A program made the position numbers and the translations under genes. DNA of 64,000 nt from the NCBI GenBank assembly GCA_964017185.1, contig OZ024880.1, forward strand, positions 46,451,071 through 46,515,070. The letters run 5' to 3'. Shown one piece after another: positions 1,921 to 64,000 of the stretch (positions are counted from its first letter, which is position 1; the number at the start of each line of letters is the position of its first letter). The notes beneath the pieces are model-generated. The model was not told the DNA's origin. It saw only the letters and a program-made list of their open reading frames with translations, and ran no database searches. Source of the DNA: Rugalucina vietnamica. Its lineage: Eukaryota; Mollusca; Bivalvia; Lucinida; Lucinidae.

Positions 1921-2577
1921 TTACAGATGATGAACTGCTATACCTTCGTATATTTCTACTTCGCAAAGAGTCAGATACTCGTTTCTTCCTGGGATATCAA
2001 TCGTGACAAACCTGAAATCATATGGTAGTTCATTTGATAAATATACAAATGGAAAAAAGTTAGGGACACAAGATTTTAAAGTGTTGTTTTTCGTTTGGGG
2101 TAAATTTTCAAACCACTATTGACTATACCCGAAATATTGTTTCGCCTACATATTGATCAATGTAAAGTAAAAATGCTAGCAAGAAATTGCAGTATATATG
2201 ATTGCTGATACACTGGATACACTCAAAGGCTTATTTTTAGTAAAATACCATTGATTCATAAGTAAGTGGCTAGGGGACACAGACTTTGTGGTAGATTAGT
2301 ATTGTGAATTTTGCAGCTGATACTAAAGTAGGCCGGAATTATCCATATCTTCGGTGAGCATTGGCAATGATTTGAATAAACATCACCATATCACAAACCA
2401 GGCTGTATCTCTGCTGCTTTGATTATGTAGCCATGTATCTTGTTATCTTATCAACACTATATAGGGGTTCATAATTATTAACTATCAAAACTGGAAAACG
2501 ATAATTTCTCAAATAGAAAATTACACCAAATTATTTTAGGCGTCCCTTTACGTTTTTCCAAGTGTATATTTTAGAAT

Positions 2578-2616
<39 letters not shown>

Positions 2617-4129
2617 CCATTTATCTACACACTATGATGGTATGTTTGTCGATTTTCTTCATCCAATCTGGCTTCGGGATTCAATAAGGTGGTTACAAAA
2701 AAAATAAGATAAAAATATGTGTAACAAGCATTGGTTACGTTTTACGTGTAATATTTTTCTCTTGTTCATGTTGTCATTAAAAAGTCCCAACTTTTTTGTT
2801 ATTTATATTGACACCGTTCTGTTAGAAAACTTCACATAATTTTATCCAAAATTGTAAGTTGTAAGCACGTTGTGAATGGGTCAGTAATTACCGTCCGAGC
2901 ACATGTTTCTTCGGCGTGATCCTGATTAATGGTCCCGGTTCATTCTGAGTGCTTATCAATACTGGCACAGAATTGCTGGTATCTTTAGTCTCGCTCACGA
3001 ACACCCGGAATCCATTCATTCGGGAGCGACACACTACACCTGTCAACATAAATGTTGGATGGCGTTGACATTGAAAATGTATAGCATCATGAAAACATGT
3101 CCGTGCAATATATACCCCCTTGAACCCCACTTTTATATAGCGAAACTGGGGTATGCAGGGGTATACCTATTTTTCTTATTTTTGCTCCAAAACATAGATT
3201 GTGGGTACTCGTTAGAACCGCCTCGGCGAGGCGGTTCTAACGTGCACCCACAATCTATGTTTTGAGCAAAAATAAGAAAAATATAAATTATCTGCTGAAA
3301 ATTTTCGGTTTTTAAAACTTAAAAAATCTCTGTATATTGCATGGGCAAGTTTTCGTAATGAAAGTGTGTTTGAATACCACAAAGTTCAATACCCGCCAAA
3401 AACGAAATGACTTGAACGATTGTCCGTTTCTGGCCATATGAAAAAAACGAGTCAATGCATTTTGTCCACAGCAAAATATTGCTGAATAGAAATCCTGGTA
3501 TGTTTTGTCTCCGAGGTTGCGCACATACTGTAGTCCATAATTATAAAACCATATACATGTAAATACATATTTTCCTGCTTCGGCTGTTCTTCTCGGCATT
3601 TTCAATTCGGTATCAAAAATACTTCTCCTCGACGACTTTTAAAAATAGGCACTTTGAGTTTCTGTTACATCACGAAACATTTCCATGAAAAACACGGGAA
3701 CATTTTCAGTTTTAAAAATGAGATTTTTTTTCTCTTATAGTTTTGCTTAAAACATAATTTAGGTACTCGTTAGAGGCGGTTCTATCATGTACCCTATCTA
3801 TTTTTGAACACAAATAAGAAAACATTTATTTTCCACTTTATTTTTGAAGGTGGAACAATTCCTATACCTTACATAGACGTGTTTATGTATTAATGATACG
3901 GAGCACTTACATGCATCCCATCTTCTTGTAATCACGATTTCTTTAATCGCCGTCATTTTGCCAAGGTCGACGCGCCACCATGGATTAAAATCATTACCAG
4001 TATGGCTGCAACACCCACTCTCCCAGGTGTTACTTTTACACCCATCGGTGGCTCGGAACGCGTCATATTCCCGTTTTTCGTAAACACTGGATTGTTCTAC
4101 CTCTTTCCCAAGGGCTATGTTATCTGTTT
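1921..4129 (-). CDS. F5/8 type C domain 2 and C-terminus, 3 exons
   Basis: Exons 3911-4129, 2892-3039 and 1921-2011. The domain reads [12 protein letters not shown], then [49 protein letters not shown], and the closing strand [21 protein letters not shown]. It mirrors F5/8C-1 in intron positions (phases 1, 1, 2), so the two probably arose by duplication. I end the gene at TAA 1921-1923 after EGIAVHHL because an AATAAA follows at 1849-1854. A GTATAG at 1938-1943 could instead be a phase-1 donor leading to exons beyond the left edge. Confidence 0.78.
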
Positions 4130-7100
4130 CTGAAAACACATGACACTGGAAAATGTGTTAAACAAATAGGAGCCCCTTTTACCGTGTTTACAAAACTCCA
4201 CCACGTGAGTTGAAGCGGCACGGTCAAAGTGTGTACCTATAGAAAGAGTTTATGATCACACCATGGATCAATTTATGTTTTTGTTACAATTAAGGAATGA
4301 AATTCAGATTTTAGCTTTCACTGGATGATGAAAAACATTAGGCTGTTTCAATGTCTGTGAAGCCCGAAGGGCTTCTCAGAGACATTAAAACAGCTTATGT
4401 TTTTCATCATCCAGTGAAAGCTAAAATCTGAATTTCAATACTTATATTTACAGTTTATATTATCAATCAAGTATCAGATTTTTAATTGCGCATATCACCG
4501 TTCATTTTTATGTTATTTGACATTAAATCCAACTTAACGTAATTTTGGAACAGCCAAAGCGTCAAATTTTCGCGCCTAACGTCACGGCGATACGCGACCA
4601 ACGTCACGACAACAAGAGTAAACAAACAACGTCACTGGATGTGTTTTGACGTCGCCCCGCCCATAGGCATGGCCTCTAGATCACGTGACTTAATGTTTTT
4701 CATTGGGAAATGAAGAACATCAAAAAAAAGATACTTTCATCAAGGTCGATTGCAATAAAAATGTAAATACATGGTTATGAATCGAGAAAATGTTATCTAA
4801 TATTTATGTTGTACGTATATATGTACATGCATATTGTAATTGCCTGAAACACCTGCAAGTAATTTTTGGCTTTTCTCATATGTGCCATAAGCGGCATAAA
4901 GGCATCTTTTTCATAAAACGGCCCACTGCGCTTAAAAGAGCATGCGAGTTCTAACAAATACGCGGGGGTATACTACTAAGTCTTATAGCTCGGTCTTGTA
5001 TCCTTCCTTACCTTTAGCGCAACACCAGCAGCCACCACACCCGGGGTATTCAGAGTTGTGTCCTCTCGTAAACTTTCGATGCCCGGTATACTCGCATATG
5101 TGTTGTTCGCTATGACCATCCGCCCGCATCGTTTTCTCGAATTGGGTGTAATGGTGGCATGTCCAGGACTCTACATATGAGCCATCTCGTGGAAAAACCA
5201 ACAATGTGGTTTCCGAAGAGGTTTGACACAAATCAGGCTGTACAGCTATAGAAGCAGGCTAGAAGCTTGAAATTTTGCAGTTAAGTAGAGGAGGAATTTT
5301 ACTATCCGAGTAGCGAAAACAAAGGCGCTGATCAGCTTCGCGGTTACCGCGAAGCTGATCTGCGTCTTTGTTTTCGCCTATGCAGATTGTTGGTTTTCCC
5401 ATGAGGCGGCTCATATGATATGTAAAAATACATGTTGGCTTCCCAGTTTTAATCTTTATTCTTTATACAGAAAATTCTACTTCTATTTACTAAAGTACCC
5501 CAGTCTATAAATTGTGTGCATGTAATTGCAACTTATATTTTGTTTAATTAAGCCAGTTCAGAGAATAACGACCTTTTGAAATTGACTCCTCGGTTTACCA
5601 TACTACTCCTTGTTTCTTACACCTTTACCCATTTCAATGTCGTACACTATTTTTATTGTCATTATTGTCAGCTCCTGTTCATTGCAATCTCAGCTTTAAC
5701 CAGTTTAGGAGGGACCTTACATATGAGCCGCCTCGTGGGAAAACCAACAATGTGGTTTCCGAAGAGGTTTGACACAAATCAGGCTGTACAGCTACAGAAG
5801 CAGGCTAGAAGCTTGAAATTTTGCAGTTAAGTAGAGGAGGAATTTTACTATCCGAGTAGCGAAAACAAAGGTGCTGATCAGTTTCGCGGTTACCGCGAAG
5901 CTGATCTGCGTCTTTGTTTTCGCCTATGCAGATTGTTGGTTTTCCCATGAGGCGGCTCATATGATATGTAAAAATACATGTTGGCTTCCCAGTTTTAATC
6001 TTTATTCTTTATACAGAAAATTCTACTTCTATTTACTAAAGTACCCCAGTCTATAAATTGTGTGCATGTAATTGCAACTAATATTTTGTTTAATTAAGCC
6101 AGTTCAGAGAGTAACGACCTTTTGAAATTGACTCCTCGGTTTACCATACTACTCCTTGTTTCTTACACCCCATCAACAACCACTTTACCCATTTCAATGT
6201 CGTACACTATTTTTATTGTCATTATTGTCAGCTCCTGTTCATTGTTATCTCAGCTTTAACCAGTTTAGGGGGGACTTTACAGTAAACGACAGACGCCAGA
6301 ATATGGGTATACTATAAGCTCACGATTTGAGCCTTACAGCTCTGGGAGCGTACAATCCTTTAAACCGCATAAACAAACTAAAATTTTATTTATCTGATGA
6401 CTTACCATAAGTGCTGGTAACAGCCGTTTTGGCTGAAAAAGAAAATGCAATTGAAATGTGACTGCATACATGTACTAAATTGTTTTAAAACAATAGATTT
6501 GAAGAGAAATGTTAATTATACTCAAACACTCCTGCATTATACAAGACAAGTCAATTATTTAGTTTTAGCCCATTGTCATAATTTGTCATATTGATGGTAT
6601 GCAGCAGCAATTCAAAGCTTATGCGATCCCATGCACCATGAGCAAAATAAATACTGTAACGAACGGCCGAGCTAAGCCACAGAAACCCCGTCAGTGGAAA
6701 AGCATGCTCATCCACCAAGGGTGGTTTACTGCGCTATATACCCAACACTTACTCGATTCACAAAGTGTCGAGTTTGAAATTTGCATATTTCTAAGGGAGG
6801 CTATCCCGTCACAATACCTTTCAATACAGCGAAACTCCAAAGTCCCGCTTTCCCATCCACAGAGTGTATCACAATGTCTGTCAGTGACTGTAAACTCTCG
6901 TCTGACCATTCCATAAAGGCATCCTTATCTACATCTGACCCTTTTCCAACTTTTATTTCTCCTCCAGCCCAGCTGAGCCAAAACTCTTTAAAGTCGGTTG
7001 CGTTTACAAGATCTTTCTCAAAGCTTGTATACTTTGTTTCTCCGTTCTTTCTAATCATCGATCGTGTCTTGCTATAACCGTCGATGATGATTTCATAAAT

Positions 7101-10100
7101 TGTCTTTGTATCGTCAGTGTTTTGTACCAGCATTAAATTGGCACTACTTTCTCCCTTGAATGAAAACTTCAGATTGTTTGTCTTTTTGAGATCTATGACG
7201 TTATTATCCTTCAGTGACACCATCTTCTTGCTAGCTCCAGTAAACAGTTTCCTAAATTTTCCTGAAAGACAAACATAAATTGCTCATTAACTTTTCTTGT
7301 GAGTAACTGACAATTGTGCAATTTAAACGATAAAGGTAGGAAGCAGGTGTACAGGGTATATCTAAAATGCGAAAAATTTCATTTTAATATTATTCAGTGT
7401 CATTATATTGTTAATGTTGTTAAAGTTGTAGTTATTACATTCAGGATTTTTACACATTTTTAAGGCTGACGTACCTAGTCGTTTGCAAACGTAGTGAAGC
7501 CTGTCCGCACACACGGTCATTACAAAACTTTCCTGCCATGGTTTATCCTTCAGTAAGAAAAGGCAGTTATGATTTCGGGCGTTTCCTGAAAAAAAGTAAA
7601 TTGGTATGGTATTAAAAAGTCCATGATGATTTGCCATTTTAAACGGGTATCAAACGAACAGGTGCATGACGTCAAAACAAACGTATATCAAAGTTTCAAC
7701 GTTGGATTGACGTTGTCATGGCGATTGTTATTGCCCCTTTCAGCGGAATGTTGTTTAGAAATAAAAAAAAAAAGTTTGTGTAAGCCAACAAAATTCTCAC
7801 CACTTTTCAAATTGTATTCCAGAATCAACTTGAGTGACATTAATTCTGTTGGATATTTTAAAGACAGTCGATCAATTTATCAATTACACGAATCAGAATG
7901 CAAAACAATAATTAGCCCTCTAGTGCCCAAACACCTTTTTGCTGAGCAGAAAATTATTATTTCATGATAGTGGGCTACGACCATGGAAGGTATTATAAAA
8001 TGTGAATATTGAATGAATTTGAATATCTGGTGCGATTTTATGGCATGTATCATATATGATACATTGTGCATTAAGTTCTGGTGTATCATATATGATACAT
8101 TCTTATAAAATCAAAATGCCTAATTATATCAATCCATTTGTTAAACAGGGATATTTAATTTGTTTTGAAATGTAACACAATGACTTGTGGAACAATAAAC
8201 AGCAACAATTGAACAGCAACAAAACCAAAATACAATGTCATTCAAAAAATGCATCTGATCACCTACATATATGATGAAACTGCAACAACATTAATACATA
8301 CCGGGAATTTTTCCCAGAGGCAGAGTTAAAATATCCATATTCTTTACTATACTTTTCCATCTTACACCTTCTACTGTATCATGGATTCCAATCCAAAACC
8401 GTTGAATGATCAAACTCTCCGGTGACTGAGAAAACCAATCTTAAATATGGATAAGAACATTTTTTGAGAACATTATTTGGTTCAGGTTATACGCACATGA
8501 CATACGACTACATGAACACACTGTTTTCTTGGTTTAAGAGGACAAAACTAATAATATGTGGTTAAATTTAAATTATTGTGAAGGCTATTTGTTATTCATA
8601 GCGTACATTCCATTATCGATGAATCTCATGAAAAAGTACAAGTAGAAAACTCCTCTATGGTTGGCTAACATATTCAATTCTTTTGTGTGTGTGCATGCAA
8701 GCCATGGATACATTGAAGGAAATATATAAAAATTGCACATTTTGATATTCTTTGATACCTTAGCCACACCAAATGGTTTCAAGGGAAACTCATTGAACGT
8801 TCCACAGAATAATCATTATACCAGAAAACTATTATTTTAATTATATGGGAGAGTGAAAGGATATTTATGACTAAAATAAGGCGTCGATCTCCAGCGAGGC
8901 AAGATTGTTATGTTCTAACGAGTTCCTATTATAATCTATTTTAGGAAAAATAAGGAATATATCAAACATTTTCAATTGAACATTCTTAATTTTACAGTTG
9001 TAAAAATCCGTCTATTTTACAGGCATGCTTTCTCATTAACTCATTTAAGCCTGGCGTCCCTTTTATGGGACATAGGCAAACAGTATAGCCGCAGATGTGA
9101 CGCCGCAGAACGCGTCCCATCTGGGGCTATTCTGCTTGCTAAAGATAATTCATCGGAAAAATGGAATAAAAAATAAAAATCGCTCCTAACACGACCTAAA
9201 ATGAACGTGGACTCACCCAAATGATTTTAATGGGGAAAATCCATTCGTGAAAAGTGGGTTTTAATAATGACTAGATCTAAACCTTTGATAAACTTTTGTT
9301 CCTCTTCGTCGTCCGGCACCAGTAGAGTTCCCCCTACAGCCTCACAGGACGATACCGCGTCAGACCAACATAGGAACTCTTCTCCGAGTTTATAACATTG
9401 CCCAGTTCGAGGGTTTTCATGCCATCCAGTGCCACAGTTCGGGCTCGCTGTTAAAACATTGAACATAATATGAAATAAGGCACTACCTTTGTCGCGACGC
9501 TCTACTCCCATTGTGCAGATAATTTTAAAATAAGCTACACATGACAGCTTCCTCACCCTGGTGACCATAGCCGACCATTACCATTATGGAAAATTAGTTT
9601 ATCAGTTTGTACAATGTTCGTATTGAAACGTGACGGCGACGTAAAACTATACGGAAAGTTGATTGATCAATTAGTATAATGCAGCAGCGCGTGTTGCAAC
9701 GTCACGATGACGTCAGAAATAACAATTCCGGTTCCGGTTGACGAAAGATTTTTTTTCTATCAATGAACAGAAGAGCAGAATAAAACAAAACTTTTATCCA
9801 CCACGTTCTACCAGCGTCGCTATTACATAAACCAGAGGCTTGTCCCTCATGGTTATCTCTTTTTTACTTCTTTTTTTCAAATTTGAACTAGAATTAGATC
9901 TAACTCGCCTTTAATGAAAGTTCTACACAATGATTGTGATGCCATACGCTAGACGTCAATGCTGTTAAGCTGGGTAGGTTGTTAAAAGTCATAAAAATAG
10001 AAAGTTTGGCAAAACATCAGTATGTAATGTAGATTTCACATACCAACATCATTGTTTTCCATGTTACTTTGGTCAGTAGTTGCTGAAATAGAGAAATCGT

Positions 10101-17196: not shown

Positions 17197-17234
<38 letters not shown>

Positions 17235-18691: not shown

Positions 18692-18744
<53 letters not shown>

Positions 18745-27700: not shown

Positions 27701-30700
27701 ACCCGACTTAAAACTTTTCCTTTTAGCTGGTTTGGGCGACAGCTTTTTTTTTGTTGCTTGGCCAACCGGGGTTCAGCTGTTTTTGTTTTCTATATTTTTG
27801 GCTTTTCAGGGATCTCCAACTGCCAGGCAGCATACATGATTTCCAGGACAGCCTCTGGCGGTATGGTGCACACATGTATGCGCCACAACATGATAATAAT
27901 AATTATTAGCATATGGTCACATACCTTGCCTGTCTATCCACACGGAGGTTCCAGGTCCATTGGATTTTAAGAAGTTGACTATGAATGATTGGAAAGCGGA
28001 GCTAAAATTCAAACGAATATAGCATCTATAGGTACGGTCTGAGTACAAGACTGTTTCGTTTAGAAACCATGCCAATTATACTGATTTATTTATTTATTCA
28101 TTTATTTATTTATTTATTTATCTATCTATTTATTTATTTATTATCCTGAACATTAAAACGGCAAGATTTTTATATTTTTATAATATTTACCTTGCTAGGC
28201 TAGCGCCCTGGAGATTACACACTCCCCTAGCCTCGTTCCATGTGGTTTCCTGCCTCGTGTCAAGTCGAAAACAGGTGGACTGATGCTGCTGCCACATGTT
28301 TGGGCAAGTCCCTGAAAGATTGAAATATATGGTAGTTAAATCTTTCTGTATTTAATTGCATTACAATAGTTAGAACTCAATGTCTAGTTCACATCAGGAA
28401 AACTTTTCCGTGCAATGTATACCCCCTTGAACCTCACTTTTATATAGCAAAGCTGGGGTATGGAGGGGTATACCTATTTTTCTTATTTTTGCTCCAAAAC
28501 ATAGATTTATGTTTTGAGCAAAAATAAGGAAAACAGCACAATTTTTCTACTGAATATTATCATTTTTTACATCTTTAAAAACTCTCGGTATATTGCATGG
28601 GCAAGTTTTCGTAATGATATATGTATTTCGGACATTGAATGCCTCGTACTCTACTGGCATCCAATGGAAACGGGGATATACTAGAACAATAAACTATTTC
28701 ATTTGTCTTCATTTTGCATATGTGTGGAAAGTATCATACCTAAAGTGATGCAAACAAATGCAGCGTATACCTGACGGTTTCGAGCAAATAAATCCAATAT
28801 TTTCATTACAGCCGACAGCTTGCCAGTTCCCGTACCCACTGACCGACGTGTTCAGTGCAACACAGTGGAGGGACTCGTTCTTGACGCTGAAAATAAAAAT
28901 AATGGATTCCTTCACTGAAGACTATTAAGAATTCCAGTGAGAAGGGTTGTAAAGAGGTATTTGTTTTGACGGTCGTTATAAGAAATCAAATAATAATTAA
29001 GCCATTTCAACTGCTTGATTCTGAATTATTTCAAGGCAAACACAAATCTTGGTATCTGCATCGTTATCCATAATATATATGTAGAGCTTAGATCTATACC
29101 CGCTATTATCCGGTCCCTGATCTGTACCCGTGACGTCACTGATATGTATCTCCATTAATCTGTACCCACGCATACCTCTAATCTATAACCACTTTAAATC
29201 ATCGTAGCTATATTAATTGAAATTATCTGGGTATGTGTTAGGGTATTCACATGAAAGGTACAGATCAGAAAAAAAGCGTGGTTACAGATCAGAGAACAGA
29301 AAATTCTCGTGGGTACAGATCAGAAAACGTAGGTAATCATGGGTACAGATCAGAGAACGTAGGTAATCATGGTTACAGATCAGAGAACGTAGGTAATCAT
29401 GGGTACAGATCAGAGAACGTAGGTAATGATGGGTACAGATCAGAGAAAGCGCGGGTACAGATCGGAGAACTTAGGTTATTGTTGATACAGATTATAGAAC
29501 GCGTGGGTACAGATCAGAGAGTGTGTACAGATTAGGGCCAGGGTAGAGATTAGAGTCCTACATCTATGCAGTATGATGAGAAATATCACCTTTCATCGTC
29601 AGGTCTACCCCCTTGCCACCACTTGTTATTTGATAAGACAGTGTCATCTTCCCAATGCCAGTCGTTGCCGTCCACCGACTGAAATGCGTATACATTACAT
29701 TTGAGCCTTCGCGTGGGGAAAACCAACAATTTGGGGTTCCGACCAGGTCCGACACAAACCAAGCTGTACAGCCATGCACAAAAGCAGGCTAGAAGCTTTA
29801 AATTTCAGATTTAGAAAGAAGAGACATTGTACTATCTGTATAGCGAAAACAATGACGCTGATAAGCTGCGCCTTTGTTTTCGCATAAGCAGATTGTTGGT
29901 TTTCTGATGCAAATCAGCAAATATAATTCAAGACCCTGATTCAATGCTACCATTACGACCAGCATTATTGAACATCGAAATATTAGTAACTTGACGTCGA
30001 TCGAGAAGAGCGTTCTCCAAACAAGCCTTTTATTTTATCAGAATCGCCTAGAACTCTGTGTGTCTGTCTAAATCATTGTAAATGAATAAAAATGAGAAAA
30101 TAGCCTTCGCATGACAAAACCAACAATCTGCATATGCGAAAACAAAGACGCAGATCAGCTGTGCAGTAACTGCAGCTTCTAGCTTTCTTCTGTGACTGTA
30201 CAGCCTGGTTTGTGTCGGACCTGGTCGGAAACCCGAATTGTTGGTTTTCTCATGCACAGGCACAATTAATAAAGCTAAGTTCAAACCTCTTGTCGGTCTT
30301 TCCTTAGACCAAGCCAAGCAGCTTCCATCCCATCACTTTTCAAGAAGTCTGTCAGTAGATTCTGCTTGCCCTCTTCATCAACGTGCGTCAACAGGCTGGC
30401 GTCGTGGGCATCACACACTGCTCTAGAAATGATGCAAGTCAATATCGTGAAAACGGCCGTGAAAACATGCCCATTACAAGCAATATACAAAATTTTCATT
30501 TTTAGAAATTCTATATCTTTCTTAAAGATTTCTCAAAACATTGATTGTGGGTATAAACGCCTCGCCGAGTATTTACAACTTGTAAGTTTCTATGTTTTGG
30601 TATTAAAATAAATAATACACTTCTGGGATGTACAAGTGTATTATTTATTTTAATACCAAAACATAGACATTTACAAGTTGTAAATACTCGGCGAGGCGTT

Positions 30701-33564
30701 CGGAAACAGGTTTCCCCACAAGGCGGCTCATATGTCATTAATGTTCGTTCATCCTTGCATCGAGAGCCTCCGTGGTCATAGTAGTGGTTAAGGTGTACCC
30801 AAGAAAGGAATCAAACTTAAAAACAAAACATAACTGCCTAGTACCGGTTAAACGTCCAGGAATGGTAACCAAACTCTAACCCGAGATTGAGCCTTTGGGG
30901 GCTCCCAGGAACAAAATCGGCCTCCAAGTACTAGCCGACTGCCCAGCCAAGGGGCCGGACCAAAGGCTTGCCGTGGAACGCTAACTAACAAAACTTTAGA
31001 AACTAAAACTGCTTTGGGGCCAAGGAAGAGGAGTTTCACAAACTATGTCCTCAGCCGCAGTCGGCCGCCTAAGCGACGAAGTGACCATTAAAAGGGGTGA
31101 GTGAGGAGAACGAAGATATGTCTATAGACTTACTTGGCTGCTTCAAATGTATGTCCTTTGTCAAATACTTTGTAGCAGTTGTCGGGTGTCAAACCATCCC
31201 AACCTCCATCCACATCGCAGCGTAATGGTAAATCTAAAAACATATACAGACCAACAGAAGAAATCTGAGGCTTCCCATGGTGCCGAGTACAGGTAAACAA
31301 GGGTTTCGAATCTGGCACATTTCAATACATTACAAACTGCCAAAGCAAGTGGTATACTGAACCACCATATCGCTTGTGCTGACAATAATCTGCGTGTTAT
31401 CAAAATTAGTCTTGATTTTTCCTATATAGACTTCATGTTCAAGTCAGTCACTACTAATATGTATACGGGTGATAAACATGGGAACGAGCTCCAAAAGAGG
31501 TAGTGGACATTTGTTCCAATGGTAATTTCGAATTAGTTCCAAAGGTGACCAGAACGTGAATAGGTCTCAGTTGTTTTGTGACTACATTCGACGTACTTAA
31601 TTAAAGAAAGATGATTATCGCAATGCTATTCCGTTCAAAGATAATTTGCCATTTTTTTTGTACCGAGAGATTATCTTTACATGGAACAGCATTGAGATAT
31701 TTTTCCTGTTTTTTCACTAACGCTTCCAAAATCCCCATAAAAGCAACTGTCTACTTTACTCCAACCATTTTACGATCTCAAAATTGCTATTGGGACAAAA
31801 TTTCACTGCCTCTTTTTGGAGCTAGTTCCAATGTTTACCACCCTTGATGTAGAAGTATATCAGGGGAATACGTAAAAGGCACATCGTTTAAATATTGGAC
31901 ATGTATTTGTCCAGACGATTTTAGATGTTTACGTGCATTATTGTCTCAACAAACCGTTCACTAGTAATGTTGTAACAATCTGCAATCGGCTGGCTCAACA
32001 ACTATGTAAAATACCATCCCAAGCTTAAGAAGACCCGGCGTCCTTTTTGTGGGGCATAGGCAAACAGAATAGCCCCAGATGGGACGCCGCAGAACCCGGC
32101 GTCCCATCTGAGACTATTCTGTTTGCACAGAGAAATTTCATCGAAAAATGAGATGAAAAATAAAAATCACTCCTTACATCCCTAAAAATGAAAGTGGACT
32201 CACCCAACTGATAATGATGGGAGAATCCATTCGTCAAATATGGGTTAAAATCTGAATGTTATCGAAGATACCGACATATTTACCTTTTGGTCGTTCGCAG
32301 ATAAACTGTAGTGGCTGTCGACAGTTCTTGTCATTTAGAAGATTGTCCCAGATCTCAGCACATCGCTCTTCTCCTCTAAAATTGTTGGGCTCACCCGACC
32401 CCCATAAACTGGAAATAATTGATCACAAGTACGAATAAAGCCGCGGTGTTGACTGTACATGTATCGTGCTAGAATCTACTCCTGAACAGTTGAAAGAAAC
32501 AAGCTGATGTCTAGGAGATTTCTGTATCTAATATGCCAATAAATAGAGGACATTTGCTTTTTTGAGGTGAATACCAAATATATTTCATCGAGTGAGTTGA
32601 AAACATCAGAATTTTCACGAGTGCGCAGCACGAATGAAAATTATTATGTTTTCAACTCACGAGATGAAATATATTTGGTATCCACCGAAAAAAAGCAAAT
32701 TTTCTTTTTATTTTATACAATGCACAGGCATTTTCCAATGCACAAGGTAGGCGGTGAAAATGCAAAAACAAAATTTTTTTGAAAACACGAACAATTTTGG
32801 TACCACATTGTTCCTTATGTTCTAACTAAGAAAATGAATACCCACACTTTATGTTTTCGTTCATAAATAACGGAGTTATAGGCGTTTGAATTTCTGAAGT
32901 GAGACTCAAGTAAATGGAAACGTCAGAAGTAATCCAAAAAATCTGACGTCATTACAGTGACGATATAGGCTGATATCAGTCACTAGTGACTTTTGATATC
33001 AGTGAGATTTGATATCAGTGAAATTTCATATCAATGAAAATACCAATTTTGTCAAGTTTTGATATACAATGGGTTTCACTGTAAAGCTACAGTCACACTG
33101 TCACGTTTCGAGGCCTACGTTTTACTACGTTTCCAAGTCCCTTTTGCCCTTTTGTCCGGTTTTGCAGGTTGTTAGGTTTCAGAACGTTTATAGCTACGTT
33201 TTGCGACGTTGTACTCCGTATCGCTACGTATTGTCCGGTTAGCCAATGGCTTAGGGCCACAGTTTCACTAGGGATTGGTACGTTTAGCTACGTATTTACT
33301 ACGTGCCGATACGTTTTCCTACGATTCAGTAGGTTTTATCAGGTTATTACTACGTAGCGTCCGGATACTTCACTTGTATCCGTGACGTATTTATTGGAAT
33401 TATTGCACCAAAATTAATTAGTTGCATGATGACCACCAAGAGAGGATCCAAGAAAAGCTCCAGGGGTGGCAAATCTGCGCGTGCACCGGGGCTGTTTAGT
33501 GCACTGCAAGATGACACAGAAGAGGTAACCTTTTTTCTCTATATTTTGTGACTCGATCTATTGC

Positions 33565-33620
<56 letters not shown>

Positions 33621-36261
33621 CAACCAAACTGTACGCATTAAGTGCATATTACTATTTGTTTCGAAAATGCACCCAATTCTTAATCCCATGCGTACTGGCC
33701 ATGAACTTGAGCGTTCGATGATCGTATTCTTTGGAAATTTAATCGTATGCTTTTGTGTCCTTCTTAAGACGTATGAAATATATTCATATAACGCCATGAT
33801 TCCATATCATATAAAAGGTTTGGGAAATCAGCATTAACCTCTATTACGGCCCGTATGCGTAACCAAACGTAGTATTACATAGTTAAATCGTAGTAGAGCG
33901 TGTCAATACGAAGTGATACCTAGTAATACCTGCTGAAACCTACTGAAACCTATCAAAACGTAGGGTAACACGTAGCAAGTCGTAGTAAAACGTATTGAAA
34001 CGTAGTCCCTGCGTATTGATACGTACAGTTCCACCGGGTTGTAATTTACGTTTTAGTACGTATTTGTTACGTATGTACTACGTTTTACTACGATTCGACT
34101 ACGCTTTGCTACGTTTTACTACGTTTTACTAGGTATAAGCTACGTAAATCAGAGGTATAAGCTACGTAAATCAGAGTGCCACGTTCGAACTGTTTTTTAG
34201 TTCGAACGTGGCATGGGCCAGGTATATAGCCGTATATAGCCGTATGTAATACGTTCCACTACGTTGTAATACGTTTTACTACGTATATTGCCGTATTGCT
34301 ACGTTTCAGAAACGTAGTAAAACGTAGGCCTCGAAACGTGACAGTGTGACTGTAGCTTAAAGTATAAAATAAAGATGGGTATCACATCATTATACTGAAT
34401 GAATTGTATGCGACAGAAACAATTATAAAGCTCTATGAAGATTCCAGTTGAAGCTACATGTCAAGATCCATGATCATAGTTGGTTCTAGAGTAGAATTTG
34501 TTTTATAGGTTTTCACTATATAAAACTTATTTGCATGGCGGCCATCTTGGTCATGGTACCTGAATTATTTATACTTTACAGAGGCTTCATATAACATTTG
34601 GCTTCAAATAACCAATTGTGTATATAAAAAGTGATTTGTTAAACTGGTGGACAAAGGACGCCGATAGACCATTACTACATGCTAAATTTGTATACTTCAA
34701 AGGTGAGCTAAAAGGAGAAAGTGGTGAAAAACGGTTTCTGTGACGTTCGTCTAGGAGTAAGGGTATGAAAAATTGTTTGCATATAGAGCTTTCATTGAGG
34801 GGAGGGCAGGACCCTTTTCTATGATGTGTGATTGGCCTTTTTTTATCTCTGTGATTTGTGAAAAAGCAAAAATTAACTCTGTGATCTGTGACAGAGGTAG
34901 TTTCTGTGATGTGTGAAACACAAATTTAAATCCATGTGATGTGTGATTTATAAATTTTCAAGTCTATCATCATTCCTTGTAATTGTAAAACCAGTTATCT
35001 AAAAGTGAATTAAAATCGAATCCATGGACCTCCAGAATTATAAAATTTTCTCTTGGGAGATCCCCCGAACCCCGCCTGAAACATCTCATACTCTTTGCCA
35101 CTTGGCACTCATGAATTACTTTCAAATTATGTGGCCGACGGGTCTGGTGACTAACAGAAATAAAAGGAAGCAATTTTCATTTTAGGTTTAAGACTAGTAT
35201 GTATATTTTAAAGCTGTTAATATACTGACCAACACCGGAATGAAATATTGATGCATATCATGTTAAAAAAGTACAAGTAGGCAAAGATCAGGAAAAGGCG
35301 CAATCAGATAAAGACTCCCACTACAAAAACCAAGATGGGAAAAAACCAAACTAACAATCAGGTACTTATACCATGAAAACATTTCGTAAGCCGAATGAGC
35401 AGCTATTTTCCCAATAGGTGGCCACTCAGTTACCTTAACTTAACTAAAAATATGCAAACATACATAAGGCGCCAACAGCACAAAAATATTTTAAACACCA
35501 AGACATAAAACAAAAAGAACCACCACAGAAGTATCGACTTGGAACGATCAGTAACACAAAGTTACTGGCGGGTTTAAATCGATTTTACACGGCCGTAACC
35601 TCACCCTCAGCTTCTGCAGTGGTTCATAACATTTAGTTAGTTCTTCGGTCCTCGTGGTGAATCTCTAACTAGTAAATGAAAAGTTTAAGGTAGTTGCTAT
35701 ACTTTTTAGGCAGTAACGTTAAGTAACAATGATTCCATTTTCCTCTGCACCACTGTGAAAAGGCAAGAGTCTGTACCATACATGTAAGGCTAAGGTTTTC
35801 TTATTAAATACATGTAGCTATGAAATAATGAGTTAAAATGACACAGTCTTTTGATACAAATAGTTATTTTTCAGTAATTGAGAAGTTATATGCTGTAAAT
35901 CAGTCAATAATGTTCAAAAACATCGGCCAAATTGCTGAATTCCCTGTGATTATGAAAATTTATCGTGTTTATTTACAGTTGTTGCTGAGAATTTGCATGC
36001 CATTCTTACATAAAGGAATCATTTCTAGGCGTCCCGTCTGTCCAGACCCAGGTGTTTAAATCTTCTATGTTGTTCAGGCCTATCCACCATTCGTAGTTAG
36101 CTGGATATTCAACTATCCTTTTTATGAGCCAGTCCTGAAGAGAATAGAGATTTTTGTCATCAGAGAACTCGTATTGTTGTTGTTTTTCTTCTTCTTCTTC
36201 TTCTTCTTCTTCTTCTTCTTCTTCTTCTTCTTCTTCTTCTTCTTCTTCTTCTTCTTCATAC

Positions 36262-36302
<41 letters not shown>

Positions 36303-37574
36303 GTCGTAGTAGTAGTAGTAGTAGTATTAATATCATTACTATTAATTCTTTGTTCCTTATTATTGAAATTAGTATGATTATTCTTTCTTTTCTTCTTTTC
36401 GTTCTACATCTTCATAAGAAAAAATAAGGCAGAGTTGACAGCGATGTGTTGGGTGTGTGAAAGTACAGTACATGTAAGTTGTCCTGTTTTTGCTATGCCT
36501 GCACATCAAAAATGAACATCTTTCTTGATAATAAAAAGCTTTCTATAAATGCTAATCCACTATGCCCATTCATGCTTGTTTTCATTATTCGTGTAACTTT
36601 GGTTCATTAAGACTCAGAAAATTTATATATTTTAATTCGTCTGTTCATATAAAAATGTGCATTTGCTGAACAATGCACTCGAATATTGTACATAAATCGG
36701 AGTATACTCGTGCAATGTTATTACCTTTTCGTCTTGTGAGTCTAGCTTCAATAAATCTCCGTCATATGCTTGACAAGTTGTGCGCGCTTCGTCCCAGGTT
36801 TTGAGGGGTGAGGGCCAGAGTCTATAGCAGGAGTCCCCGCCCGGTCTATCTAACCACCGGTTTGGGCACCGATTACAAGTGACTGTATAATAAATGCAAA
36901 TTTATGCACATTGTGTTCTAGCATTTTCTTGCTAGGGTACTTTTCACGAGTAACATGAGAAAAATGTTCGTTGAATCTTAACAAGCATTCATATATTTTT
37001 CTTGTTTTGCTCTGAAACAAACTTTAAGGGTACCATTACTCTTGAACTGTTTCTGTAATTATTGTAGTCATTATATTTTTATACATGTTGATCGCTACTT
37101 AATAATTTAGAGGTATCAAAATAATTCCAAAATACTGTTTATACAGACGGTCAGAATTATGTGTGTTTTGTGTTTTAACGACCCATTCAACACTTTTTCA
37201 GTAATGTCGATCTATAGCCTTAACAATTCACACTTTATTGCAAAAAGATGCTGTCTGTAAACATCAGGAAAACATGACCGTGTAATACTCCAAAACATAG
37301 ATTGTGGGTACTCGTAAGAACCGCCTCGGCAAGGCGATTCTAACGTGTACCCACAATCTATGATTTGAGCAAAAATAAGAAAAATATCAAATATTTTCAG
37401 CGAAAATTTTCGATTTTTAAAGCTGAAAAAAAAAATCTGTATGGGCAAGTTTTCGTAATGAACATGTTTAATATATACCTTTGAAAAAGAGTATTCCGGA
37501 CAGAATCAAAAAAGTCATTAAGGTCTCCATTATAAATGATTTTTGTAAAATTTCCAAACGAGAAAAATAAGGAA
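1921..37574 (-). CDS. Multidomain secreted lectin: SP-4xCTLD-F5/8C-kringle-CTLD-FAMT-Cys-F5/8C (whole gene)
   Basis: Thirty coding exons on the minus strand join into one frame of 1310 codons plus stop. The start is ATG at 37528-37530 in an exon (37479-37574) encoding [17 protein letters not shown], a short signal peptide. Domain order by residue: CTLD1 18-153, CTLD2 154-300, CTLD3 301-427, CTLD4 428-557, F5/8C-1 558-701, linker 702-714, kringle 715-797, linker 798-810, CTLD5 811-948, FAMT 949-1096, linker 1097-1105, Cys-rich 1106-1158, F5/8C-2 1159-1310. Every domain boundary is a phase-1 intron and every internal phase matches its partner, which is strong internal support. The last exon reads to a TAA at 1921-1923 and an AATAAA lies about 67 bases further on, with no transmembrane segment, so the product is predicted secreted. 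The family roles (sugar or surface recognition) are known; the function of this combination is inference. A 5' UTR exon must lie upstream because the start exon has its own acceptor. Confidence 0.85.
2580..2614. repeat. (GT)n microsatellite
   Basis: About 17 GT units in the lectin-gene intron. Confidence 0.9.
3086..3360. mobile_element. MITE family M2
   Basis: Family M2 starts near CATCAGGAAAACATGTCCG, has a long stem with the palindromic core CGCCTCGGCGAGGCG flanked by ACATAGATTGTGGGTAC, and ends GTTTTCGTAATG. Complete copy in the intron after F5/8C-2 exon 1. Confidence 0.8.
4298..4437. repeat. Long near-perfect hairpin
   Basis: Arms TGAAATTCAGATTTTAGCTTTCACTGG... meet at GAAGCCCGAAGGGCTTC. 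The 4560-4680 stretch downstream has several AACGTCAC/GACGTC motifs. Confidence 0.75.
5012..5170 (-). CDS. Cys-rich 53-residue exon of unknown fold
   Basis: A 159-base phase 1-1 exon with a strong GTAAGG donor, encoding [15 protein letters not shown], then [11 protein letters not shown] and [11 protein letters not shown], with six cysteines in all. I do not recognise the domain; it lacks the fibronectin-II, EGF, WAP or TSP patterns I looked for. The frame fits between the 6406-6432 and 3911-4129 exons. Its acceptor (ATGTAG) abuts a fold-back MITE at 5178-5413, so the upstream intron sequence now comes from the transposon. The exon could be poorly spliced. Confidence 0.5.
5178..5413. mobile_element. 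Fold-back MITE, family M1
   Basis: Family M1 has ends TGAGCCGCCTCGTGGGAAAACC and a perfect central palindrome (around GATCAGCTTCGCGGTTACCG). This copy starts directly at the acceptor of the Cys-rich exon and is part of the 5.2-6.3 kb tandem duplication. Confidence 0.8.
5724..5959. mobile_element. Fold-back MITE, family M1 (duplicated copy)
   Basis: Nearly identical to the 5178 copy, at an offset of 546 bases. Confidence 0.8.
6406..6432 (-). CDS. 9-residue micro-exon (linker)
   Basis: A 27-base phase 1-1 exon encoding A-KTAVTSTY, between a TTTTTCAG acceptor and a GTAAGT donor. Thr/Ser-rich, probably a flexible and possibly O-glycosylated spacer after the FAMT domain. Good splice signals, but too short for any domain evidence. 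Confidence 0.45.
6818..7261 (-). CDS. Farnesoic acid O-methyltransferase-like (Methyltransf_FA) domain exon
   Basis: One 444-base phase 1-1 exon encoding 148 residues. The pattern [50 protein letters not shown], and a terminal [15 protein letters not shown] is characteristic of the Methyltransf_FA family. That name is historical; in molluscs and arthropods the domain often occurs as an extracellular module beside lectin domains, with no demonstrated methyltransferase motif. There is no S-adenosylmethionine-binding glycine motif here. It follows CTLD5 directly. Confidence 0.8.
7475..9447 (-). CDS. CTLD5 of the lectin gene (3 exons)
   Basis: Exons 9283-9447, 8302-8439 and 7475-7585, 138 residues. 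The first has [18 protein letters not shown] and [21 protein letters not shown]; the second has [19 protein letters not shown] and RWKSI; the third has [19 protein letters not shown]. No EPN/QPD motif is present ([10 protein letters not shown] at that site). The acceptor of the middle exon was placed at 8440-8441 because this keeps phase 1 and yields the expected Lys-Asp-Trp continuation. The first donor (GTTTAG) is weak and is followed within about 20 bases by a short interspersed repeat. Confidence 0.8.
9046..9265. repeat. Short interspersed repeat, copy 1
   Basis: GGCGTCCC, ATAGGCAAACAG, CGCCGCAGAAC and GGACTCACCCAA blocks shared with 32026-32253. It directly follows the weak donor of CTLD5 exon 1. 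Confidence 0.65.
10044..10082 (-). CDS. 13-residue linker exon after the kringle
   Basis: A 39-base phase 1-1 exon (TATTTCAG acceptor, GTATGT donor) encoding [13 protein letters not shown], a polar spacer between the kringle and CTLD5. It has the same length as the linker before the kringle. Supported by splice sites and phase only. Confidence 0.5.
10390..11840. repeat. Element of four ~320-bp tandem units
   Basis: Units begin around 10550, 10860, 11180 and 11500 and share ACTCAATAAACATTTCT, GAGACTGCAGAAA, GCAACCAGAGTTCTTATC and TGAAAGTTG blocks. The right end has GACGGACGACGGACGGACG, then CTTCGGCTCAGGCGAGCTAA; the left end has the complementary AAAGCTCACCTG. This is a typical molluscan transposon tail; no gene. 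Open frames here are repeat artefacts. Confidence 0.7.
11991..12211. mobile_element. Fold-back MITE, family M1
   Basis: Ends TGAGCCACCACATGGG and GGCGGCTCA; internal GCGGTAACCGC palindrome. Confidence 0.75.
13289..13537 (-). CDS. Kringle domain exon
   Basis: A single 249-base phase 1-1 exon encoding 83 residues. All six kringle cysteines are present ([28 protein letters not shown]), along with the hallmarks [12 protein letters not shown], a His-Pro-like start [19 protein letters not shown] and [10 protein letters not shown]. Kringles mediate protein or lysine binding in clotting proteases, ROR receptors and various invertebrate lectin-like proteins; here no protease domain accompanies it. 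The acceptor is ATGCATGCAG with a weak pyrimidine tract; the donor is GTCAGT. Confidence 0.9.
13792..13830 (-). CDS. 13-residue linker exon before the kringle
   Basis: A 39-base phase 1-1 exon with a TTTCCAG acceptor and a GTATGT donor, encoding [13 protein letters not shown]. It connects the first F5/8C domain to the kringle. Removing it would keep the frame, so it could be alternatively included. Support is splice signals and phase only. Confidence 0.5.
14105..14416. mobile_element. 0.3-kb MITE
   Basis: Ends GAATGTTTCCGGTAAC and GTTACCGGAAACATTC are perfect inverted repeats around CCCGACC-rich interior sequence; T-rich sequence follows on the right. It lies between the kringle linker and the last F5/8C-1 exon. 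Confidence 0.65.
14490..17498 (-). CDS. F5/8 type C (discoidin/F-lectin-like) domain 1, 3 exons
   Basis: Exons 17286-17498, 16458-16608 and 14490-14557, 144 residues. The domain opens [12 protein letters not shown], continues with [19 protein letters not shown] and NPWWELDMG, and ends YIRIDIP...[10 protein letters not shown]. This is the classical discoidin outline and is closest to the fucolectin/F-type branch (CCSHT, WW.(L/V)D, a paired Arg and an Asp in HRRYDGG). F5/8C domains bind sugars or phospholipids on cell surfaces. The His to RxD spacing and the residue after it do not fit the strict F-type fucose motif, so specificity is open. The first exon ends at GTAAGT, with a T-rich MITE relic directly beyond. 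Confidence 0.85.
14581..14856. mobile_element. MITE family M2, reverse orientation
   Basis: Complete, with the core CGCCTCGGCGAGGCG at 14709 and a GTTTTCCTGATG end; immediately upstream of the last F5/8C-1 exon. Confidence 0.8.
14882..15104. mobile_element. Fold-back MITE, family M1, diverged
   Basis: Shares the GTCCGACACAAACC and GCGCCTTTGTTTTCG blocks; the left end is degraded. Confidence 0.6.
15185..16305 (+). mobile_element. 3' portion of the same RT element family
   Basis: Contains GTGTATACATTTCG, the [17 protein letters not shown] region and, in a final open frame, [17 protein letters not shown] and [18 protein letters not shown], then the conserved 3' region ending at GCCTACTTGTACC. 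Frameshifts and a T-run at 15485 show decay. It lies in the lectin-gene intron inside F5/8C-1. Confidence 0.65.
16956..17283. mobile_element. MITE family M2, degenerate, with T-runs
   Basis: TTGTGGGTACTC, ACTTGTCCGTG and TTTTGAGCAAAAATA blocks match M2. A T-run at 17201-17230 and a TTC run at 17040-17056 interrupt it. It abuts the donor at 17286. Confidence 0.6.
17702..18645 (+). mobile_element. 944-bp TTAA-type non-autonomous transposon, copy 1
   Basis: Begins GGATGTTCGCTGCTAACATT and ends GGCAGCGAACATCC, short inverted repeats, with TTAA at the right flank. It has no coding potential. The copy at 41125-42068 is its reverse complement with the same length. TTAA targets are typical of piggyBac- or Kolobok-like families. 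It lies in the intron between CTLD4 and F5/8C-1. Confidence 0.8.
18698..18740. repeat. (CT)n microsatellite
   Basis: About 21 CT units close to the end of the TTAA element. Confidence 0.9.
18885..25319 (-). CDS. CTLD4 of the lectin gene (3 exons) split by a retroelement-filled intron
   Basis: Exons 25161-25319, 19308-19390 and 18885-19032, about 130 residues. The first has [17 protein letters not shown] and [20 protein letters not shown]; the second has [18 protein letters not shown]; the third has a tryptophan, two Cys and LGYVCQQRA. There is no EPN/QPD; the equivalent stretch reads [10 protein letters not shown]. The 5.8-kb intron after the first exon is occupied by a 5'-truncated LINE with nested reverse-transcriptase fragments, and the insertion edge is only about 45-55 bases from the donor. 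Confidence 0.82.
20585..22769 (+). mobile_element. Decayed reverse-transcriptase element (Penelope-like type suspected) inside the LINE copy
   Basis: Plus-strand remnants include PMGTNCAPL (20.99-21.04 kb), a damaged active site where the YLDD position reads YLYD, then [67 protein letters not shown] and a terminus [18 protein letters not shown] at 22153. About 600 bases of 3' region end in GCCTACCTGTACC. An 8-base repeat AGCTTGGT (20577-20584 and 22770-22777) brackets it, and the surrounding LINE is continuous across the break, so it is a clean insertion. The family is common in mollusc and cnidarian genomes; its class is my inference. Confidence 0.7.
24206..24498 (+). mobile_element. Second small fragment of the same RT element in the LINE copy
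   Basis: Resembles 21503-21790 of the neighbouring element (TTTTGAGATCAG, CTAACCAATGTTTAA). It interrupts the LINE between sequence matching 48527-48545 of the intact copy and its continuation, so it is a separate, internally deleted insertion. Confidence 0.55.
25630..28311 (-). CDS. CTLD3 of the lectin gene (4 exons), divergent
   Basis: Exons 28191-28311, 27925-28001, 26553-26636 and 25630-25728, about 127 residues. The N-terminal half is clear ([32 protein letters not shown]), and the WIGL position reads SVWIDRQ. The third exon has no EPN or QPD motif. The fourth gives [11 protein letters not shown], followed by a proline- and threonine-rich linker that ends at a GTGAGC donor. The fold is supported by Cys spacing and neighbours; sugar binding is not. 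A MITE-like element (26709-27466) and a retroelement fragment lie in the intron between exons 2 and 3. Confidence 0.75.
25913..26099. mobile_element. Fold-back MITE, family M1, relic
   Basis: CTTTGTTTTCGGTGCACAG, CTTCTAGCCTTCTTCTGTG and GTGTCGGAACTGATCGG blocks match M1; the ends are lost. Confidence 0.5.
26709..27466. mobile_element. 0.76-kb inverted-repeat MITE
   Basis: Ends are AAGTCCAATTCGCATGC and its complement GCATGCGAATTGGACTT. Repeats of ACTCCGGTGTG and AAATATACTCC occur in both arms. Non-coding. It lies within the lectin-gene intron of CTLD3. Confidence 0.75.
27475..27830 (+). mobile_element. Short RT-element remnant
   Basis: Matches the C-terminal reverse-transcriptase region of the elements at 15.2 and 21-22 kb ([26 protein letters not shown]). 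It is immediately adjacent to the inverted-repeat element ending at 27466. Confidence 0.55.
28079..28142. repeat. (ATTT)n microsatellite
   Basis: Tetranucleotide run between CTLD3 exons 1 and 2. Confidence 0.9.
28392..28615. mobile_element. MITE family M2, internally deleted
   Basis: CATCAGGAAAACTTTTCCGTG start, GTTTTCGTAATG end. The GC-rich core is missing: CCAAAACATAGATT meets ATGTTTTGAGC directly. Confidence 0.75.
28771..31233 (-). CDS. CTLD2 of the lectin gene (4 exons)
   Basis: Exons 31134-31233, 30287-30422, 29590-29678 and 28771-28886, about 147 residues. Visible: [15 protein letters not shown] at the N-terminus, [17 protein letters not shown] in the helix 2 region, AAWLGLRK as the WIGL motif, NDWHWEDDT, and a C-terminus with Cys residues ending in GFICSKPSG. 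The usual EPN/QPD position reads GGRPDDE, so canonical calcium-dependent sugar binding is doubtful. Exon 2 uses a GTTTGA donor, less usual than the others. Phases (1, 2, 0, 2, 1) are consistent. Confidence 0.82.
29262..29540. repeat. 30-bp minisatellite (GGGTACAGATCAGAGAACGT unit)
   Basis: About eight units, the central four almost identical at a 30-base period. Just upstream (29110-29190) single reverse-orientation units (CTGATCTGTACCC) occur. It lies in the intron between CTLD2 exons 3 and 4. A plus-strand 94-residue frame through it is a repeat artefact. Confidence 0.8.
29702..29912. mobile_element. Fold-back MITE, family M1
   Basis: Left end TGAGCCTTCGCGTGGGG; central GCTGATAAGCTGCGCC; right end diverged. 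Confidence 0.6.
30102..30263. mobile_element. Fold-back MITE, family M1, internally deleted
   Basis: AAAACCAACAATCTGCATATG and GTGTCGGACCTGGTCGGAA blocks match M1. Confidence 0.6.
30467..30720. repeat. M2-related long hairpin
   Basis: Contains the M2 start (GTGAAAACATGCCC), then an 80-base-class hairpin whose arms TGTTTTGGTATTAAAATAAA and its complement meet at CTTCTGGGATG. It ends with CGGCGAGGCG and part of an M1 end (GGCGGCTCA at 30723). Confidence 0.6.
32026..32253. repeat. Short interspersed repeat, copy 2
   Basis: Same blocks as the 9-kb copy; GATGGGACGCCGCAG and its inverted CGGCGTCCCATCTG form a hairpin. Confidence 0.65.
32284..36882 (-). CDS. CTLD1 of the lectin gene (3 exons), canonical EPN
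   Basis: Exons 36725-36882, 36010-36134 and 32284-32408. The first carries the N-terminal CTLD half ([29 protein letters not shown]). The second has the WWIGL core motif and WVWTDGTP. The third has GSGEPNNF and ends with a Cys pair and FICERPK. EPN is the mannose-type calcium and sugar-binding signature in C-type lectins, and this is the only CTLD of the five where it is intact. The 3.6-kb intron between exons 2 and 3 holds a 1.3-kb inverted-repeat element and a retroelement tail. Confidence 0.85.
32566..32684. repeat. Long hairpin in the CTLD1 intron
   Basis: Arms ATACCAAATATATTTCATC and complement meet at ACGAGTGCGCAGCACG. AATCTGACGTCATTACAGTGACG follows at about 32938. Confidence 0.75.
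33084..34358. mobile_element. 1.3-kb inverted-repeat element rich in TACGTTT motifs
   Basis: The two ends are near-perfect inverted repeats of about 49 bases, beginning AAGCTACAGTCACACTGTCA on the left and ending as its complement on the right. Inside, both arms carry dozens of degenerate TACGTTT/AAACGTA copies, in opposite senses on the two sides. A 52-base A-run (33566-33617) and a short coding-like exon (33426-33524) lie within. This looks like a non-autonomous DNA transposon with subterminal repeats. The target duplication is ambiguous (TAAA-like). Confidence 0.8.
33426..33524 (+). CDS. Coding-like first exon inside the inverted-repeat element
   Basis: ATG ATG opens 33 codons, [18 protein letters not shown] then [15 protein letters not shown], followed directly by a GTAACC donor-like site. 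Its base composition (GC-rich, basic N-terminus) stands out from the AT-rich surroundings. It may be a relic of a transposase or DNA-binding-protein exon, or captured host sequence. No downstream exon was found. Confidence 0.3.
35275..35685 (-). mobile_element. 3' tail of the RT element, reverse orientation
   Basis: The reverse complement matches the noncoding 3' region at 22310-22760, including the GCCTACTTGTAC end. There is no coding part. It lies in the 3.6-kb CTLD1 intron. Confidence 0.6.
36186..36321. repeat. Compound (TTC)n-(ATT)n-(AGT)n microsatellite
   Basis: About 25 TTC, 14 ATT and several AGT units; produces a spurious poly-Phe/Leu/Val frame. Confidence 0.9.
37262..37460. mobile_element. 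MITE family M2 beside the signal-peptide exon donor
   Basis: Core CGCCTCGGCAAGGCG at 37322; the right end GTTTTCGTAATG is about 20 bases from the donor at 37478. Confidence 0.78.
37479..37574 (-). CDS. Signal-peptide exon of the lectin gene
   Basis: The exon follows a pyrimidine-rich acceptor ending TTTCTTTCAG and has about 44 bases of 5' UTR before ATG at 37528-37530. It encodes 17 residues with a hydrophobic run ([13 protein letters not shown]) and stops after one base of codon 18 at a GTATAT donor. The next exon (36725-36882) opens with two bases, giving Val-Thr-Cys and then the first CTLD. The phase match and hydrophobic content decide the start. A fold-back MITE (37262-37460) begins fewer than 20 bases past the donor. 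Confidence 0.75.
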
Positions 37575-63727: not shown

Positions 63728-64000
63728 GTGAGAAAGACAATGGTTGTAAAACATTACATTTCCATAGATATATTATGGCTACGTTCGGGTTCTTCCAATG
63801 GTAAAATCTGCAAATCTACCATTGGTACTGTTGGTACCTTTTTTACCAATGGTAACCAGAAAACCCTGAACGTTTTTCTGCTGCCAATGGTACCAATGGT
63901 ACCATTGGTAGACCACATGGTGGAATTTTTATCATATTGATCAATACACCTCACTTGTTTTTGTCTTTCCTATTTACTTCATGTATATTGTGTTATAACA

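Follow-up and report, generated by a model that had tools for sequence, protein, structure and literature searches.

A probable mannose-receptor-like locus combining C-type lectin, F-type lectin, kringle and FAMT modules in the bivalve Rugalucina vietnamica

Closest described systems

Bivalves have no antibodies; their lectin repertoires are large and change fast. In the Manila clam, 13 mannose-receptor genes (RpMR1-13) with 1-14 CLECT domains per protein are described, and FA58C, FTP, kringle, signal peptide and transmembrane regions occur among the family members (PMC12321717). These genes have 2-60 exons, encode proteins of up to 320 kDa, and several of them lie on one chromosome; the expression of RpMR1-6 was altered after Vibrio challenge (PMC12321717). 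Bivalve-specific multidomain proteins with C-type lectin domains (CTLDs) have been described as a class (PMC10140915).

In this study, 64,000 nucleotides of the R. vietnamica genome (contig OZ024880.1, hereafter C12; C12:46451071-46515070), called the window below, were analyzed; the genome comprises 1.09 Gb in 47 contigs. Compared by description only, the locus had the same set of CLECT, FA58C/FTP and kringle domains as the RpMR family, here in one open frame. Methyltransf_FA (FAMT) and ShK, by contrast, are not among the domains listed in the accessible part of the Manila clam article, nor does that text state which of them occur together in a protein (PMC12321717). An earlier note on this DNA had assigned the architecture to no described family, which was too strong, as the RpMR family has nearly this domain set, FAMT not being listed (PMC12321717). 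The locus is not an unknown architecture class, because both the RpMR family and the bivalve multidomain CTLD proteins are described (PMC12321717, PMC10140915).

The main text of the bivalve CTLD survey does not contain the words kringle, coagulation factor, FA58C, fucolectin or methyltransf (PMC10140915). In the open-access literature, no paper was found that combined farnesoic acid O-methyltransferase, kringle and lectin, or Methyltransf FA and C-type lectin. For insects, DM9 is named with FAMT in the accessible part of PMC5712788, and CTLD with FAMT is not.

Tandem CTLDs are shared with the vertebrate mannose-receptor family (MRC1, MRC2, LY75, PLA2R and the chicken IgY receptor), whereas kringle, F5/8C and FAMT modules are added at this locus. 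In the printed frames, examined by eye, no cysteine-rich (ricin-like) or FN2 exon was seen before CTLD1, and the signal-peptide exon was joined to CTLD1 across an intron of 596 nt. The first F5/8C domain was similar to the F-type lectins FBP32, Sm-hPAF and lectin 1k12; it differed from them by a four-residue insertion and by being part of a larger protein.

Exons and modules in the window

Minus-strand frames of at least 22 codons across the window were inspected by eye for extra exons. A total of 24 exons was re-derived, running from the ATG of the signal-peptide exon to position 1921 (Table 1). The 30 exons and 1310 residues given in the earlier note were not reproduced; the joined frame had 1161 codons, and its sole stop was the terminal one. 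All 23 introns were GT-AG, and the phases fitted at each junction. The exons in the window are real.

Table 1. Features of the locus (window positions, except the last row).
Feature	Position	Strand	Evidence or remark
Signal-peptide exon (17 residues)	37479..37530	-	phase-1 donor score 1.65, hydropathy 2.76
CTLD1 exon a	36725..36882	-	splice model, Pfam
CTLD1 exon b	36010..36134	-	splice model, Pfam
CTLD1 exon c, EPN and LND motifs	32284..32408	-	splice model, Pfam (CTLD1 74.1 bits)
CTLD2 exon a	31134..31233	-	splice model, Pfam
CTLD2 exon b	30287..30422	-	splice model, Pfam
CTLD2 exon c	29590..29678	-	splice model, Pfam
CTLD2 exon d	28771..28886	-	splice model, Pfam (CTLD2 50.7 bits)
CTLD3 exon a	28191..28311	-	splice model, CTLD profile, Pfam
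CTLD3 exon b, C-terminal half of domain not found	27925..28001	-	19.6 bits, below cut-off
CTLD4 exon a	25161..25319	-	splice model, Pfam, conserved on C1
CTLD4 exon b	19308..19390	-	splice model, Pfam, conserved on C1
CTLD4 exon c	18885..19032	-	splice model, Pfam (CTLD4 65.8 bits), conserved on C1
F5/8C (F-type lectin) domain 1 exon a	17286..17498	-	splice model, Pfam, C1 match, structure alignment
F5/8C domain 1 exon b	16458..16608	-	splice model, Pfam, C1 match
F5/8C domain 1 exon c	14490..14557	-	splice model, Pfam, C1 match
Kringle, single exon, six Cys	13289..13537	-	splice model, Pfam (75.7 bits), C1 match
CTLD5 exon a, weakest donor of the model (-3.1)	9283..9447	-	splice model, Pfam
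CTLD5 exon b, weak acceptor; its tail seems to be in another frame than in the homologue	8302..8439	-	splice model
CTLD5 exon c	7475..7585	-	splice model, Pfam (CTLD5 40.5 bits)
Methyltransf_FA (FAMT), single exon	6818..7261	-	splice model, Pfam (70.8 bits)
F5/8C domain 2 exon a	3911..4129	-	splice model, Pfam
F5/8C domain 2 exon b	2892..3039	-	splice model, Pfam
F5/8C domain 2 exon c, to phase-1 GT (GAAG/GTATAG, score 0.8)	1944..2011	-	splice model; earlier reading runs to stop 1921
Marker-order loci	46487965 down to 46385134 (this locus); 42057627-42113447; 54349912-54378026		C12 coordinates

The strength of the phase agreement was investigated by picking the best splice sites without regard to phase, within margins of 30, 45 and 60 nt. 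Agreement was found at 19 of the 23 junctions with the 30 nt margin and at 18 with the two wider margins, giving p values of ~1e-6 to 1e-5 against an expectation of one third per junction. Against shuffled phases the p value was 3e-4; the mean there was as high as 9.8/23 because phase 1 is common. By type, 8/9 between-module and 10/14 within-module junctions agreed, and the five mismatches at 45 nt were CTLD2b/c, CTLD2d/3a, CTLD4b/c, CTLD5a/b and CTLD5b/c. The frame continuity of the exon series exceeds chance. The earlier claim of one frame without phase conflict held over the 24 exons, and it says little about one gene or several, since all nine between-module junctions were in phase 1. Shuffled modules usually share this phase, and any of them would join; a frame that stays open after joining therefore cannot by itself prove one gene or set the gene ends. 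The order of exons across sister loci and the absence of good internal signal peptides are better evidence for one gene than the frame.

The modules were compared with Pfam profiles at cut-offs of 22.6 bits for CTLD (PF00059), 34.3 for kringle (PF00051) and 24.2 for Methyltransf_FA (PF12248), and eight of the nine modules scored above cut-off (Table 1; 54.1 and 43.9 bits for the F5/8C domains). The chimeric lectin architecture proposed earlier is real, as CTLD, F5/8C, kringle and Methyltransf_FA stood in one open frame, and Pfam confirmed the two F5/8C domains, the kringle and the FAMT in one row. Only four of the five CTLDs counted earlier were complete, CTLD3 being an N-terminal half of 66 residues. 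The six cysteines of the kringle lay within its exon, and the Methyltransf_FA match does not imply enzyme activity.

The calcium and sugar motifs of C-type lectin domains are EPN or QPD together with a WND-type motif. Both motifs were present in one of the four complete CTLDs of the window, CTLD1. Among five CTLDs tested downstream of the window (the downstream domains are numbered D1-D8), D2, D3 and D8 had both motifs, and D4 and D5 had one. Among proteins of solved structure, CTLD1 ranked highest with the chicken yolk-sac IgY receptor, LY75, PLA2R and mannose receptors, with scores summed over many CTLDs. By single domain, the mannose-receptor family reached 59.0 bits and a DC-SIGN-type chain 62.4 bits; the mannose-receptor ranking is thus partly a domain-sum effect.

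The first F5/8C domain was nearest to F-type lectins of solved structure (FBP32, E 4.7e-26). In the alignment with FBP32, a His, an Arg-x-Asp and a later Arg were kept, which we take to be the fucose-site residues, and the insertion fell between the Asp and the last Arg. For FAMT, the best match to a solved structure had an E value of 0.21, and a single-sequence fold prediction gave a mean pLDDT of 38.6. FAMT occupied one exon in the window, while a phase-1 intron split both the downstream FAMT and that at C12:54.37 Mb; this difference reflects either intron loss or an old difference.

The encoded protein would enter the secretory pathway and may act outside the cell as a multivalent recognizer of microbial or self glycans. 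Calcium-dependent contacts with sugars would be expected of CTLD1 and of some CTLDs past the window, and the F-type lectin domains, judged from their sequence, may bind fucose-type sugars. The kringle and FAMT could serve as binding or spacer modules.

Cassette paralogues and sister arrays

Relatives of parts of the locus were found on two other contigs, C1 and C2. On C1, a strong candidate signal-peptide exon (C1:93183143, donor 8.7) stood 4.3 kb before a CTLD4, and the CTLD4, F5/8C and kringle exons followed in the same order and on the same strand, to C1:93223779. All seven exons shared with the window kept their boundaries and phase, and length differences were multiples of three. In the shared exons, 230 of 346 residues were identical, with pN 0.21, pS 0.76 and pN/pS 0.28 (dS saturated). 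The excess of pS over pN showed purifying selection, although the ratio also reflects older selection. In the 100 kb examined on C1, no match to CTLD1-3, CTLD5, FAMT or the second F5/8C was found. A FAMT-F5/8C pair was found at C2:66672000-66678225, with ~33% and 40-43% identity to the window.

A dense array of CTLDs (named A1-A9) with a FAMT was found on the plus strand at C12:54.35-54.38 Mb. Its intron phases agreed with those of the window in CTLD1 and A1 (0, 2), CTLD4 and A3 (1, 0) and CTLD5 and A4 (1, 1). CTLD2 had phases 2, 0, 2 and A2 had 2, 0, ?, 2, the third exon of A2 not having been found. Downstream of the window, D2 and D4 had phases 1, 1, and the last acceptors of D1 and D3 were ambiguous. 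Several splice sites of A1, A2 and D1-D3 were weak or ambiguous. A signal-peptide candidate for the 54.35 Mb gene (L047:1883) was dropped, as it overlapped the acceptor (1928) of the first CTLD exon.

By similarity, the best partners of CTLD1-5, D1-D5 and D8 were, in this order, A1, A4, A1, A3, A4, A4, A4, A4, A4, A5 and A7. The order of these 11 CTLDs followed that of A1-A9 with a Spearman coefficient of 0.83 (permutation p 0.001); D6 and D7 were left out, and the sequences used for D1, A2 and A5 were incomplete. Two domains departed from the phase-based pairing: CTLD2 matched A4 best rather than A2, and the best match of CTLD3 was a weak one to A1.

Six markers (CTLD1a, CTLD5a, D7c, D8c, A8a and A9b) lay in one order at three C12 loci (Table 1). 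The markers were picked after the hits had been seen, and the best match per locus was used; further, weaker matches to these exon types lay at 42098452, 42100310, 42118574 and 54383850. At this locus the A8a and A9b markers gave weak matches, with E values of 5.8e-4 for A8a and 2.6e-4 for A9b. No F5/8C or kringle was among the matches listed at the 42.06-42.11 and 54.35-54.38 Mb loci.

These comparisons point to a backbone of CTLDs whose order would follow that of two or more sister arrays elsewhere on C12. The CTLD4-F5/8C-kringle cassette, also present as a separate gene on C1, would lie inside this backbone, and the FAMT-F5/8C cassette, a pair present on C2, would likewise lie inside it. 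Phase-1 introns between modules would allow such insertions. With the backbone and likely relatives of the cassettes in one genome, the origin of chimeric recognition proteins becomes directly testable.

Extent and integrity of the putative gene

The window exons are probably the 5' part of one mannose-receptor-like gene of ~100 kb with inserted CTLD-F5/8C-kringle and FAMT-F5/8C cassettes. Its predicted order would be signal peptide, CTLD1, CTLD2, half of CTLD3, CTLD4, F5/8C, kringle, CTLD5, FAMT and F5/8C, and further CTLDs, two ShK and a second FAMT past the window would belong to the same gene. We infer one transcript for these exons. For the fuller statement, the chances seem about even: one gene at C12:46.385-46.489 Mb may encode a protein with a CTLD number well in excess of ten, a kringle and two each of the F-type lectin, FAMT and ShK domains, its phase-1 cassettes, which have relatives elsewhere in the genome, having been put into a backbone colinear with at least two sister genes. 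If this is true, exon shuffling in an immune lectin could be traced stepwise at the locus.

The earlier note had presented the exons as a complete protein, secreted and lacking a transmembrane part; this was not supported, as CTLD matches on the same strand continued at least to C12:46385134, ~66 kb past the left window edge. At least seven further CTLDs (D1-D5 and D8, with partial D6 and D7) lay left of the window on that strand, where two ShK domains (a pair scoring 51 bits) and another FAMT (78.9 bits) were also present. Both the pair and this FAMT seem to be placed between exons of single CTLDs (minus strand of C12:46391071-46421070, L038-L040), an arrangement that is odd for one intact gene.

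A complete secreted protein, from the signal peptide to the second F5/8C domain and ending at 1921, with the downstream CTLD array forming a second family member in tandem, is rather unlikely. The frame is open to the stop at 1921, and an AATAAA lies 67 nt beyond it, at 1854; AATAAA or ATTAAA occurs ~2.1 times per kb on the minus strand. Neighboring genes of this kind are described in the Manila clam, where RpMR7 and RpMR4 lie ~2 kb apart on one strand (PMC12321717, Table 1). At this locus, the stop stood seven codons beyond the phase-1 GT at 1944, whose donor score was undercut by 4 of the 23 model donors, and the 3' end placed at 1921 probably falls within intron sequence.

Between the second F5/8C domain and D1 lay an LTR element (C12:46442935-46450857) with LTRs of 1432 bp that were 99.93% identical. 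This LTR retrotransposon is very young, and the gap was ~2.7 kb once it was discounted. The exon of D1, at C12:46442370, can start in phase 1 (acceptor 0.5). Against an end at 1921, no signal-peptide-like frame for a second gene was found in the ~2.7 kb outside the LTR element at thresholds of hydropathy >=1.7 and phase-1 donor >=-2; all such frames found in the gap lay inside that element. The marker order at the two sister loci also crosses this boundary, and A4 was the best match of CTLD5 and of D1-D4 alike.

That the locus is a decaying pseudogene of a mannose-receptor-like gene is distinctly unlikely. CTLD3 lacked its C-terminal half and CTLD5 exon b was apparently frameshifted, which would fit partial decay of the gene, as would the retrotransposon-like sequence in the introns. 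The missing half of CTLD3 was sought with a local CTLD profile in all minus-strand frames of at least 10 codons between 27925 and 25319, and nothing above 2.3 bits was found. An exon candidate at 25729, translated in the likeliest of its three frames, had no Pfam match.

In CTLD5, the junction between exons a and b was the weakest of the model (acceptor -1.1), and a better acceptor for exon b at 8425 (score 1.4) clashed in phase. The tail of exon b was more like its A4 homologue in another frame, in a stretch of 11 residues compared with KPFAFLNWAAG. It looks as if a compensated frameshift has changed the coding of the sugar-loop region: as exon b stays in phase as a whole, the loop would be recoded, not cut. 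An assembly indel may be the source of the frame change. Decay is opposed by the absence of internal stops from all 1161 codons and by the low pN/pS against C1 on seven exons, with the reservation on older selection given above. Furthermore, CTLD3 exons a and b together and CTLD5 exon b had phase 1 at both sides, so that both damaged parts could be skipped in frame.

At least two genes within the window, for example CTLD1-3 apart from a C1-like CTLD4-F5/8C-kringle gene, or CTLD5-FAMT-F5/8C as a gene of its own, are very unlikely: the C1 paralogue with its candidate signal peptide and without the other window modules fits such a division, and the phase-1 junctions are no bar to it, but only weak signal-peptide candidates occurred in 27925-25319 (best 26937, donor -1.4), those in 13289-9447 were of a kind seen 86 times in 124 kb, and the CTLD1-2-4-5 order and intron phases matched A1-A2-A3-A4.

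Around the putative ~100 kb gene, several other sequences were observed. Retrotransposon-like sequence occurred within introns of the locus. An open frame of 1091 codons at 49710-46435 (minus strand) looked by eye like a non-LTR retrotransposon protein, and the intron that separates CTLD4 exons a and b contained fragments of a similar element, at ~25.0-19.9 kb. A frame at 40719-40057 (minus strand; 171 residues from the first Met, with acidic stretches) had no Pfam match and stopped ~2.5 kb upstream of the signal-peptide exon; it is probably a neighboring gene. A 280-residue frame at 55978-55091 (minus strand) had many hydrophobic segments and no Pfam match above cut-off. On the plus strand, a leucine-rich-repeat exon was found at 63445-63804 (PF12799, 40 bits), and two near-identical 73-codon frames at 5289-6056, 546 bp apart, represented a local tandem duplication of repeat sequence.
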